In this document: one piece after another, positions 11,430 through 14,733 of the stretch
Position numbering within the stretch: the stretch's first letter is position 1
Layout: the number at the start of each line of letters is the position of its first letter
DNA from: Prevotella sp. oral taxon 299 str. F0039
GTDB taxonomy: Bacteria > Bacteroidota > Bacteroidia > Bacteroidales > Bacteroidaceae
NCBI RefSeq assembly: GCF_000163055.2
Contig: NC_022111.1
Location: 186,001 to 250,000, forward strand
Direction: 5' to 3'
DNA length: 64,000 bases
Translations under genes and position numbers: made by a program
Notes under the pieces: generated by a model
The model's database searches: none
What the model saw: the letters and a program-made list of their open reading frames with translations, nothing else
What the model was told of the DNA's origin: nothing

Positions 11430-11936
11430 ATGCGAACGATAAATTCTTTCATTTTACTTTGTGTATTCTGCCTGTTCTGTCAGCCGACCCTTGCCCAGCG
11501 CAGGGTGCGGCTGGCAGACTTGCCACCTTTTGAGCGTGCAGTAGTTGTTGTGAAATATTTTGAGGGACTGCACGGCTGGAAGAATTATCCGTATGTTGGG
11601 TATGGGCATCAGCTGCAACGGGGAGAGTACTTTACGGCAGATATGACGGAACGGCAGGCAGATTCCCTGCTCCGTGCCGACCTTTGGAAATGCTTTGAAC
11701 ACTTTAAAGGATACGGAAAAGATGCCCTATTGCTTGCCCTCTTATCCTACAATGTTGGAGTGGGTAGGTTACTGGGATACGGCAAACATCCCAAGAGTAG
11801 ATTGCTACGAAAGATAGAGTCGGGCGACAGGAATTTCTACCGTGACTTTGTCTCTTTCTGCCGATATAAGGGAAAAGTCTTGAATGGGTTAGTCAAACGT
11901 AGACAGGTGGAGTTTGCTCTGTTTTATAAATCATGA
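11430..11936 (+). CDS. Conjugation-associated lysozyme (GH24-like peptidoglycan hydrolase)
   Basis: This 168-residue protein starts at ATG 11430 (a TTG at 11427 is in frame). It has a signal peptide (about residues 1-22) and a phage-lysozyme-like core. The likely catalytic Glu is in VVKYFEGLHGW; GYGHQL follows, then the helical LLALLSYNVGVGRLLG segment typical of the fold. Lysozymes close many Bacteroides tra operons and are thought to open peptidoglycan locally for the mating channel. A strong terminator follows 9 bp after the stop, so this is the last gene of the operon. Confidence 0.85.
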   Translation: MRTINSFILLCVFCLFCQPTLAQRRVRLADLPPFERAVVVVKYFEGLHGWKNYPYVGYGHQLQRGEYFTADMTERQADSLLRADLWKCFEHFKGYGKDALLLALLSYNVGVGRLLGYGKHPKSRLLRKIESGDRNFYRDFVSFCRYKGKVLNGLVKRRQVEFALFYKS

Positions 11937-11945
11937 TTGTCAAAG

Positions 11946-11986
11946 ACGCCTCTTGCGACATTTTATGCTTCGCAAGAGGCGTTTTC
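11946..11986 (+). terminator. Rho-independent terminator of the tra operon
   Basis: A perfect 12-bp stem (ACGCCTCTTGCG at 11946-11957 with its complement at 11971-11982) and 13-nt loop are followed by T residues. It separates the transfer operon from the cargo operon. Confidence 0.9.
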
Positions 11987-12021: not shown

Positions 12022-12029
12022 TAACTTTG
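12022..12029 (+). promoter_or_regulatory. -7 box of the HEPN-caspase operon
   Basis: TAACTTTG fits the Bacteroidetes -7 consensus TAnnTTTG, 21 bp before ATG 12051, with an A-rich ribosome-binding stretch (AAGAAAAGATA) between. No good TTTG -33 box is seen at the right spacing. Confidence 0.6.
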
Positions 12030-12050
12030 CAATCTTAATAAGAAAAGATA

Positions 12051-12923
12051 ATGATTATATCGCAGAAAACTATTGAAAAATTGAGAGAGTTAATAAATGA
12101 AGAAACAGAATATCGTTCTGGTTCTAAGCTTGTTGCTTTTTTCAATCAATATGGATTTAGAGATGTGTATGGAAATGGCTTTCCCTCAAGATGGATATAC
12201 ACAGAGGAGAAAATACGTGCATTGAATGGAAAGCCCGAATTAGATAGATGTATTAAGGATGTTTTTGCGCCAGTAAATTTTATCGGAAGATTCTCTGAAT
12301 TAGATTCTTTTATAGCAGACTTCAATCAATACCTCTGTTTTGATGGGTGGAATGTTATACGTAAAGGTCGAGAAATAACTTTTTCAAAAGCTACAGGGGT
12401 AGATATTGAAAAGGAAAAAGAACGCATCGTAAATAATACGGAAGCAGAATTCCTAAATGCGGAATTTGCAGATATTTCAATTGAAAGTCTCCCTATAGAC
12501 AATTATGTGCTACCCTATATAGCTGCACGTATCAGCGAAATCAAAACTTGTTTATCTGCAAAAGCTGCTTTATCTGTAATATTCCTTTCTGGAAGTACAT
12601 TAGAGGGAGTTTTGTTGGGATTAGCTCAAAATAATCCAGCAATGTATAATAAAGCTAAATCTGCTCCAAAAGATAACAAAACGGGAAAGATTCGACCGTT
12701 TCATGAATGGACACTTAGTAATCTTATTGACGTATCTTGTGAGGTAGGTTTCCTAAGAGAGGATGTCAAGAAATTCAGTCACTCATTGCGAGATTTTAGA
12801 AATTATATTCATCCATTTCAGCAGATGTCAGAGCATTTTTCCCCAGATGAAAATACCGCAAAAATTTGCTTTCAAGTACTGAAGGCCGCATTATTTCAAA
12901 TAACTCAAAACAAGAAAAGATGA
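12051..12923 (+). CDS. AbiJ-NTD-like/HEPN-domain protein, putative defence RNase
   Basis: This 290-residue protein has two parts. Residues 1 to about 125 contain the run YRSGSKLVAFFNQYGFRDVY followed by PSRWIYTEEKIRALNG, a pattern I associate with the N-terminal modules of AbiJ-like abortive-infection proteins. Residues about 150-285 are helical and carry R247-x6-H254 within SLRDFRNYIHP, the R-x4-6-H signature of HEPN ribonucleases. It is expected to be a soluble RNase or sensor. The stop overlaps the caspase-like gene's start by 4 bp (ATGA), so the pair is translationally coupled. Base composition is clearly more AT-rich than the tra genes, a sign of cargo acquired separately. The HEPN motif and operon are seen directly; the defence role is inferred. 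Confidence 0.72.
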   Translation: MIISQKTIEKLRELINEETEYRSGSKLVAFFNQYGFRDVYGNGFPSRWIYTEEKIRALNGKPELDRCIKDVFAPVNFIGRFSELDSFIADFNQYLCFDGWNVIRKGREITFSKATGVDIEKEKERIVNNTEAEFLNAEFADISIESLPIDNYVLPYIAARISEIKTCLSAKAALSVIFLSGSTLEGVLLGLAQNNPAMYNKAKSAPKDNKTGKIRPFHEWTLSNLIDVSCEVGFLREDVKKFSHSLRDFRNYIHPFQQMSEHFSPDENTAKICFQVLKAALFQITQNKKR

Positions 12924-14362
12924 AAACAATTGCTTTTGTTATTGGGAACAATGATTATTTTGAAGGTGCTCAGCTAAAGTGTGCTGTAAATGATGCCTCG
13001 GAGATAGCAAATATCTTTCGTCGTCTTGGGTATGATGTTCGTAAGAAACTAAATATCAAGTCAGAAGATTGCTCAGGTATACTAAGAGAATTTGAAGATC
13101 AGATAAAGGATTATGATGCTTCTATCTTTTACTTTGCAGGACATGGCTTTGAACTTGGAGGTGAAAACTATTTAGTGCCAACAAACTGCCAGATGCCTCT
13201 TAACGACACATATGAAGCAGATAGAACTTGCCTTAGATTATCAGAGATATTAAGTATACTCAAAAAGGTTTCAGGGAAGGTCAATATAGTGATAATAGAT
13301 GCCTGTAGAAAATCTTTTGATAGAGGAACTTCAAGCTCTTCTGCGCAGGTAAAGGCTCCTAAAGGAACTCTCATTGCTTTTTCTACCTCTCCAAACGAAG
13401 GTGCGAAAGATGGGAATGGGCAAAATGGTCATAGTGTATATACAAGTGCCTTATTGCAATATCTAGGAAGGGAAACATTATCTGTTGAGAGTCTTTTTAA
13501 GAAAGTCAGAAGAACGGTCTATAACCTAACTAATGGAACTCAAACGCCATGGGAACATACGTCTTTAATTGGGGATTTCTTTTTCAATACTGGGCAATTG
13601 GTTTATTCGGTAGAAATCCCTTATGATGAAGTTGTCGTTAAAGACTCCATGTTTGATGGAGGCGATGTTTTTGGCAATTTAATTTTGGAACTCCGTTCTT
13701 GTAATTGGGATAGACAAAACCCTGCAATGGAAAAGATTCGCAAAATACCTGCTTCTGACCTCAACAAAAATCAACAGTTTATTTTGGGACGCAATTTGTA
13801 CCAAGCTAATGGTTATGCGTGGGAAGTGCAAAGATTTTTTGAAAACCTTGGAAATAACTTATCAAAATACAATAAAGACGAAGAAAATCATGTTCTCAAT
13901 GGTATTCTGTTCGAGATATACTTTGATAGTAAAGGAAATTTTCGGAATGAACTAAAAAGATATGATTTTGATAGAGTGTTTTCTCTTCGGAAAAATCCAA
14001 GATTTGTAAAATCTTTTGGCTTTATAGAGGAGGTTCTCCAACCATATAAAGAACAACTCTATTATATTCCCACTATTCATGATGAGCCAATTGATATTGA
14101 CATCAGTGCAGAAGAAAAAAACAACTCAACAGTATTTGAAGAAGAAACTATTCAAATTATACACAAAGTTAATGTGGAGAATAAAGATATAACAAAAGCA
14201 TTCTCTCGCAGTTGTACTTATGGCATAAATGAGTTAGGAGTAAAATCTTGTTTGTCTAATTTTCTTACAGCTCCGCAAGATTTGATTCAAATACATAGCA
14301 ATGTTTTGTTACAGAAGATAGCTTTTGCAAAAGAACTGTTTGACGAAGATTTGCCTTGGTAA
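12920..14362 (+). CDS. Caspase-like (peptidase C14) protein with unknown C-terminal region
   Basis: I choose ATG 12920, overlapping the previous stop (a TTG-like upstream extension to 12866 is unlikely), giving 480 residues. Residues 1 to about 240 form a caspase/metacaspase fold: FVIGNNDYF strand, catalytic His75 in FYFAGHGF, and catalytic Cys129 in VIIDACRK, with ISFST-like strand LIAFSTSPNEG. Residues about 245-480 are helical and acidic, with no domain I recognise. Prokaryotic caspase-like proteases act as effectors in several immune systems by cleaving host proteins or partner toxins. Coupling to a HEPN protein suggests that one regulates or activates the other; which is sensor and which is effector cannot be read from the sequence. 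A hairpin at 14372 may end the operon. Confidence 0.85.
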   Translation: MKTIAFVIGNNDYFEGAQLKCAVNDASEIANIFRRLGYDVRKKLNIKSEDCSGILREFEDQIKDYDASIFYFAGHGFELGGENYLVPTNCQMPLNDTYEADRTCLRLSEILSILKKVSGKVNIVIIDACRKSFDRGTSSSSAQVKAPKGTLIAFSTSPNEGAKDGNGQNGHSVYTSALLQYLGRETLSVESLFKKVRRTVYNLTNGTQTPWEHTSLIGDFFFNTGQLVYSVEIPYDEVVVKDSMFDGGDVFGNLILELRSCNWDRQNPAMEKIRKIPASDLNKNQQFILGRNLYQANGYAWEVQRFFENLGNNLSKYNKDEENHVLNGILFEIYFDSKGNFRNELKRYDFDRVFSLRKNPRFVKSFGFIEEVLQPYKEQLYYIPTIHDEPIDIDISAEEKNNSTVFEEETIQIIHKVNVENKDITKAFSRSCTYGINELGVKSCLSNFLTAPQDLIQIHSNVLLQKIAFAKELFDEDLPW

Positions 14363-14371
14363 TGGCTTTTT

Positions 14372-14410
14372 GTTACTTTTGAGCCGTATCAACTCACTGT
14401 CAAAAGTAAC
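14372..14410 (+). terminator. Hairpin after the caspase-like gene
   Basis: GTTACTTTTGA at 14372-14382 pairs perfectly with 14400-14410 (loop 17 nt); a T-run (GTGTTTTTC) begins a few bases later. A terminator is likely but not classical. Confidence 0.5.
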
Positions 14411-14470
14411 GAGGTGTTTTTCATCGGGGTTTCTTTGCCCCTTTCTTTGTCCGCTTAGGCTCACGAAAGA

Positions 14471-14508
14471 AAGTAATGTGGTCGGCAAATCTGCCGACCG
14501 CATTACTT
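14471..14508 (-). terminator. Terminator of the minus-strand accessory operon
   Basis: A 17-bp stem with one G-U pair (14471-14487 with 14492-14508) and 4-nt loop. Read on the minus strand it ends with a pyrimidine-rich run (CTTTCTTTC). The stem contains the stop codon of the adjacent minus-strand gene. Confidence 0.7.
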
Positions 14509-14733
14509 AGTCTCTTCTTCTTGAATAGTTATCTGTCCCGTCCTTACTTCGGGGTGAGTGGAGAAAGCCCAATTTATTTCATCATCGGGTAAAGTGCTGT
14601 GAATACTTCCACCCATCACCAACCCACAATTTTGCAAGACTTTCTGCCGTGCGTCTTCCTTACTCTCTGCAACCACATCAAACACTCCTTCGAAGATGTA
14701 TTGCGTCCGAACTCTATAAACCTTCTTTTTCAT
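14503..14733 (-). CDS. Small PcfM/DpnD-like accessory protein
   Basis: This 76-residue protein starts at ATG 14733; a TTG extension to 14748 exists. It has a beta-strand-helix-beta pattern (KKVYRVRTQYIFEGVFDVVA, then helix ESKEDARQKVLQNCG). This resembles the small DpnD/PcfM-type proteins that accompany PcfJ and PcfK in Firmicute and Bacteroidetes conjugative elements. No catalytic residues are evident. It is the last gene of the minus-strand run and its stop lies inside a terminator stem. Confidence 0.5.
   Translation of the reverse strand: MKKKVYRVRTQYIFEGVFDVVAESKEDARQKVLQNCGLVMGGSIHSTLPDDEINWAFSTHPEVRTGQITIQEEETK

Follow-up and report, generated by a model that had tools for sequence, protein, structure and literature searches.

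Organization of the locus

The window analysed here is a 64,000-nucleotide stretch of the genome of Prevotella sp. oral taxon 299 str. F0039 (contig NC_022111.1, positions 186,001 to 250,000). It includes DNA of a conjugative transposon that carries, as cargo, two overlapping genes: gene 1, potentially encoding a HEPN-type ribonuclease, and gene 2, encoding a caspase-fold protease similar to MALT1 (Table 1). Both reading frames, their coordinates and their ATGA overlap were as described in an earlier note on this DNA, according to the sequence and the list of open reading frames, and no further open reading frame of at least 70 amino acids occurs between positions 12031 and 14500.

Table 1. 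Features of the two-gene locus and its borders
Feature	Position	Strand	Evidence
Left terminator-like hairpin	11965..11982	+	hairpin scan
Promoter -7 box TAACTTTG	12022..12029	+	sequence; 21 bp before gene 1
Cargo slot, DNA that two related P. nigrescens elements lack	12031..14550		DNA homology ends
Gene 1, predicted HEPN RNase, 290 amino acids	12051..12923	+	open reading frame, sequence, model
HEPN core R250-N-Y-I-H254 of gene 1	12798..12812	+	sequence, alignment
Gene 1 stop overlapping gene 2 start (ATGA, 4 bp)	12920..12923	+	sequence
Gene 2, MALT1-like caspase-fold protease, 480 amino acids	12920..14362	+	open reading frame, Pfam, model
Caspase His75 codon	13142..13144	+	sequence; invariant in alignment
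Caspase Cys129 codon	13304..13306	+	sequence; invariant in alignment
Hairpin, 13-bp stem, directly after caspase stop	14370..14412	+	RNA fold
Hairpin, 17-bp stem	14471..14508		hairpin scan and RNA fold

A -7 box that would fit the shared promoter proposed in the note is present in front of gene 1 (TAnnTTTG is taken here to be the Bacteroides -7 promoter consensus), and the layout suggests that genes 1 and 2 lie on one transcript. The bounding hairpins were found as well. Six terminator-like sites were detected between 11400 and 15000 by the hairpin scan, against 2.4 expected, and the transcript of 14363-14520 folds with -63.1 kcal/mol, against a shuffle mean of -33.7 kcal/mol (z -8.9). The last hairpin is possibly a terminator for both strands. 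The guanine-cytosine content of the pair (0.34-0.36) is below that of the tra genes at 6-12 kb (0.46-0.50), as had been remarked, and that of the right side is 0.41-0.44.

The pair occupies an exchangeable slot

On its left the pair is bordered by TraN (DUF4138), TraO, TraQ and a lysozyme-like gene, and on its right by two small genes without Pfam match, then PcfJ and PcfK, with a tyrosine-type integrase at a greater distance. Two Prevotella nigrescens records, L156 and L157, match this element on both flanks with 88-94% DNA identity and hold other genes in between. The homology with L156 stops at 12030, a little beyond the promoter box, and starts again at 14551; with L157 it ends at 11923 and resumes at 14564. 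The promoter region is therefore common to the window and L156, in which a TAAATTTG box precedes a different cargo gene. The slot encodes a 257-amino-acid protein in L156 (3206-3979) and a 116-amino-acid protein in L157 (3151-3501), neither with a PADLOC match.

The pair itself lies in the same slot of elements from Hallella seregens (L002) and Prevotella oulorum (L003), whose TraM, TraN and TraO are 34-56% identical to those of the window. The ATGA is kept at the caspase start in all three linked copies, the -7 box reads TAACTTTG in L002 and TAACTTTA in L003, and a stretch similar to the left hairpin is present in L002, L003 and L156. Moreover, the same slot of L120 (3673-5859) contains a 72% identical gene 1 followed by AbiH (PF14253, E 1.6e-30) and no caspase, and in L136 and L163 a nuclease-type gene and a caspase gene lie in a comparable slot, three small genes after TraQ (DUF3872). 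These observations support the view, already put forward in the note, that the pair is cargo in a slot of a conjugative transposon. Its position between the tra operon and the pcfJ and pcfK genes might also suggest a function of the element itself, such as transfer control or exclusion of related elements. This has a very low probability, since related elements hold other genes in the slot while keeping the tra backbone, and most of the fetched relatives of gene 1 and of the caspase are without the window's tra, pcfJ and pcfK in the fetched stretch.

Gene 2 encodes a MALT1-like caspase-fold protein

Gene 2 matches the Pfam family PF00656 (E 1.2e-37), and in an alignment of 24 sequences neither of the predicted dyad residues, H75 and C129, varies. 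The caspase-fold domain covers residues 1-231 and is followed by a conserved, unassigned C-terminal half (232-480). In a fold search with the structure model, the caspase domain was closest to MALT1, a human immune protease; residues 237-379 are mostly helical in the model, with few strands beyond, in a part that the fold search barely probed. The product would be expected to have protease activity. Both genes are under purifying selection, with ratios of nonsynonymous to synonymous divergence (dN/dS) of 0.10-0.29. Identity with the EACC1-associated caspases was rejected, as gene 2 scores 47.9 bits where the model requires 140 and its partner is HEPN-like, not EACC1.

Gene 1 encodes a HEPN-like protein

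The gene 1 product consists of a weakly AbiJ_NTD3-like N-terminus, a linker (residues 118-138) and a HEPN-like domain (residues 146-290 approximately). The window protein has no Pfam match of its own, and a PDB sequence search gave nothing relevant; nevertheless its predicted structure has a HEPN-like helical fold, with MNT-HEPN structures among the fold matches, as the earlier assignment would require. The predicted local distance difference test score (pLDDT) is below 50 at residues 118-129 and 131-138. Within the family, DUF4145 is matched by 22 of 33 members (best E 0.0012) and AbiJ_NTD3, weakly, by 4 of 33 (best E 0.013). The locus lacks the adjacent MNT nucleotidyltransferase of MNT-HEPN toxin-antitoxin systems: the neighbours are the caspase and the lysozyme-like gene.

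The motif of the HEPN superfamily is R-x4-6-H, and the R247-x6-H254 named in the note is present in the window. However, R247 is an arginine in only 121 of 126 aligned sequences. Of the five deviating rows one is frameshifted, and the four others are intact and have K, K, M or Q at this position, whereas R250-N-x-x-H254 (R250-N251-Y-I-H254 in the window) is kept in 125 of the 126 rows. The conserved core is therefore R-x3-H, and by this alignment R247-x6-H254 need not be the catalytic pair.

Neighbours of the caspase in other genomes

A search with gene 2 gave 1577 caspase relatives, but close ones are rare in the species draws. In 296 genomes, four matches exceeded 680 bits and 31 genomes had any match; at E <= 1e-60, species draws yielded 3/393, 2/92, 1/397 and 2/375 genomes, partly the same ones, and the last three of these draws gave no new caspase locus. 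None of 26 pattern-matching stretches in viral contigs was confirmed as a caspase, and neither protein of the pair had a match among 50,697 annotated phage records.

Outside the window, five loci with a caspase at least 50% identical were found through the caspase itself (L136, L112, L113, L114 and L138), and a nuclease-type gene adjoins the caspase in three of these five. In L136, a PD-(D/E)xK-type gene lies 27 bp upstream; its family has invariant E29, D53, E77-x-K79 and Q148, which we take to be the PD-(D/E)xK pattern. None of the libraries calls this gene a nuclease; the sole Pfam match was to Sec7 (E 1e-4), and PADLOC and NCBIfam yielded nothing. A Ymh-type HEPN gene is located 58 bp downstream of the caspase in L112, and in L113 a gene with an RNTLTHP motif is located 165 bp upstream. 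PDB sequence searches with the L136 nuclease-type gene and the L113 neighbour found nothing relevant, and hhalign of the gene 1 profile against the L112, L113 and L114 neighbours gave no signal, so that the L113 protein is called HEPN-like by its motif only.

Three more loci were found through the partner: L002 and L003 via gene 1, and L163 via the nuclease-type gene. L163 is 99.9% identical to L136 over 17.5 kb under a different genus label. With these and the window, seven of nine loci, or four of six lineages, are nuclease-linked; this count is biased, because four of the nine (L002, L003, L163 and the window) were not caspase-found, and the unbiased count is three of five. In a weak control (L115-L119, matching the N-terminal caspase domain only), no nuclease was seen by eye among two genes per side; L118 carries a RelE/ParE-like toxin-antitoxin pair beside the caspase.

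Looser relatives were also inspected. L154, L139, L140, L141 and L153, together with L138, are the six opened among 14 plasmid records whose coverage is at least 80%; the other eight are Edwardsiella records like L153. L154 has a DUF4145 gene (by annotation) that is convergent with the caspase and not in an operon with it, and no nuclease was recognised next door in L139, L140, L141 and L153. L137 is a type I restriction locus in which a caspase of 39% identity and an HsdS-type gene are only 15 bp apart.

Neighbours of gene 1 in other genomes

Gene 1 belongs to a large family, with 5001 proteins at E <= 0.001, among which the best 120 were listed. A named genome collection contained 288 gene 1 loci from many phyla, and the best 80 were fetched, six of them ending within 1 kb downstream of the gene. 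The exact pair occurs in two of the 80 (L002 and L003), and in the other 78 no such caspase was seen at any distance within the DNA fetched. One downstream gene in ten loci and one upstream gene in ten were scanned, revealing DNA methyltransferases, a reverse transcriptase, ApeA, AAA and GHKL-type ATPases, a DUF4011 helicase, a TatD gene, an amidohydrolase and some genes without matches. The family mostly adjoins other genes, many of them defence-related. Among 296 genomes of the phylum, eight matches at E <= 1e-40 were obtained, of which two are full-length (the window genome included) and six begin only at residues 84-127; the HEPN part therefore also seems to occur with other N-termini.

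These data bear on the possibility that the caspase restrains a toxin, degrading or holding the HEPN RNase until its activity is lost on infection and the toxin is freed. The overlap of the genes and the precedent of HEPN toxin-antitoxin systems would fit such an arrangement. Nevertheless its probability is low, since the 78 caspase-free loci indicate that the RNase family does not need the caspase as an antidote, and the known logic of caspase-nuclease systems, as described in PMC12799240, is activation.

Comparison with known systems

The closest known system is Canu (KaeCanABC), in which, according to PMC12799240, a MALT1-like caspase is encoded with a pro-nuclease of the metallo-beta-lactamase (MBL) fold, and with which the activation of a DNase by a bacterial caspase was established. 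The window shares with Canu a MALT1-like caspase encoded with a nuclease, as well as the kind of setting, Canu loci lying in defence islands and near transposases. Several differences were found. The nuclease of the window is of the HEPN type and upstream of the caspase, whereas that of Canu has an MBL fold and is downstream; the pair has no third gene corresponding to CanB; and no CanA-like immunoglobulin fold is evident in the caspase model, in a part that was barely probed by the fold search. No MBL-fold pro-nuclease lies beside the pair, whose neighbourhood comprises the HEPN-like gene, the lysozyme-like gene, the two small genes and PcfJ; the search did not extend to other parts of the genome. 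What these comparisons suggest as new is a caspase with an RNase-type (HEPN) partner in place of the MBL-fold pro-nuclease.

Gene 1 resembles the AbiJ/DUF4145-type HEPN proteins (PMC3710099) in having a C-terminal HEPN domain and, putatively, an N-terminal AbiJ-type domain, which a few members of its family match weakly. Relatives of those proteins are found in restriction-modification operons, and so are relatives of gene 1. The window protein differs by its lack of a Pfam match, its R-x3-H core and the co-encoded caspase; the word "caspase" does not occur in the main text of PMC3710099. The Hachiman and AVAST nuclease-trypsin pairs likewise join a nuclease to a protease, a combination common to unrelated immune settings, but their protease is trypsin-like and their nuclease has an MBL fold (PMC12799240). 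The EACC1-associated caspases are bacterial caspase-superfamily proteases in a two-gene conflict system (PMC7159879); gene 2 falls below their model cut-off and has a HEPN-like partner. The note had known of no characterised system composed of exactly these two genes, and no description of a HEPN and caspase operon was recognised, by title, opening of the abstract or passage, in the literature searched, which included passages of PMC8195603, PMC10952713 and PMC13092281, with subscription papers mostly outside it.

A possible caspase-activated ribonuclease

Taken together, these features suggest, tentatively and at somewhat less than even probability, that the pair is a mobile two-gene anti-phage cargo acting by abortive infection, with the HEPN RNase as effector and the MALT1-like protease acting with the neighbouring nuclease. 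Infection may be sensed by the gene 1 product through its N-terminal domain or by the gene 2 product through its C-terminal half, and the caspase would be switched on. It would then release or activate the RNase. Cleavage behind a basic residue of the loose linker, at about residues 118-138, is the probable way; binding of the HEPN protein without cutting is an alternative. The freed RNase would cut RNA, and growth would stop before phage is made. The elements of this reading that computation supports are both folds, the conserved catalytic residues, the compact overlap, the purifying selection, the exchangeable slot and, in another element, a member of the caspase family with a different nuclease-type neighbour. 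That the caspase acts with a neighbouring nuclease, here an RNase effector, appears to be the best-supported reading of the comparisons. The protease-RNase switch imagined in the note fits the finding of a caspase beside some nuclease; which enzyme controls which is suggested here by analogy.

Several observations weigh against this interpretation. The exact pair was seen in one lineage only (the window, L002 and L003), in the same slot of other elements, and not from varied defence islands as the note had expected. Tight same-strand downstream linkage was found in 39 of 90 gene 1 loci, little above the 324 of 954 background genes (other genes of the same loci), in a count that takes in viral contigs, six of which have the same neighbours. 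The L002 copy of gene 1 hardly differs from that of the window (synonymous divergence, dS, 0.03), but its caspase does (dS 0.21), being about as divergent as in the third copy (dS 0.24). This points to exchange within the unit and, as read from these sequences, to partly separate histories of the two genes. Gene 1 of L003 (8001-8837) is 14 codons short at its end compared with L002, its HEPN core being unaffected. No caspase-linked insertion is present in the HEPN protein, the linker having 22-24 residues in the three linked copies and 16-27 in all 126 rows, which argues against a scheme closely modelled on Canu gating, although a gate could also work without an added insertion. As for the caspase neighbours, the rate of three in five stands without a matched control; one of the three loci (L113) appears nuclease-linked by motif only; and a VapBC-like toxin-antitoxin pair, recognised by eye 131 bp upstream of the caspase homologue in L112 (10430-11064), means that the Ymh-type HEPN need not be its true partner. 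No nuclease was recognised among the neighbours scanned or read in L114 and L138, and a HEPN-type gene accompanies only one in six of the looser relatives (33-39% identical).

Nearly as likely is that two independent solo defence genes have been stacked behind one slot promoter, their adjacency reflecting the accumulation of cargo. This would account for the gene 1 loci without caspase, often beside other defence-type genes, for the AbiH gene following gene 1 in L120, for the caspases of L114 and L138 and for the separate dS values in L002. It is less easily reconciled with the 4-bp overlap, whose ATGA is kept in three copies, and with the nuclease-type genes of the caspase-found loci, uncontrolled as that rate is.

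If the caspase-activated RNase is real, an RNase would take a Canu-like role, the nuclease being swapped and the protease kept, and proteolytic activation would be a more widespread means of arming effectors. A caspase next to some nuclease, and not the exact combination with gene 1, is what may hold more generally; the caspase may work with exchangeable nucleases, in a pairing that is modular rather than accidental. A broader version, which we consider doubtful, is that one MALT1-like family drives effectors of unrelated folds (HEPN RNase, PD-(D/E)xK nuclease and Ymh-type HEPN), plugged in and exchanged as cargo behind the slot promoter of Bacteroidales-type conjugative transposons, the window copy being a caspase-activated RNase. 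The pair is small, both genes are open reading frames, and it is easy to test.

Other arrangements of gene 1

In four Flavobacterium loci (L029, L041, L050 and L058), the gene 1 homologue is followed at 82-85 bp by a protein of 1547-1549 amino acids, which in L029 has DUF4011, helicase and MTES_1575 nuclease domains; this is a candidate conserved pair. In L015, L021, L022 and L023, related 112-amino-acid proteins follow at 0-6 bp, that of L015 without Pfam match. A C-terminal remnant of a gene 1 homologue (residues 239-281, 72%) without annotated feature lies at L158:6001-6129, one opened of three Bacteroides fragilis plasmid records that have such a short remnant in common. Finally, the homologues of L052 and L056 come after genes of 286/284, 440 and 241 amino acids, the last being of the TatD type in L052, a series that presumably resembles a Qat operon.
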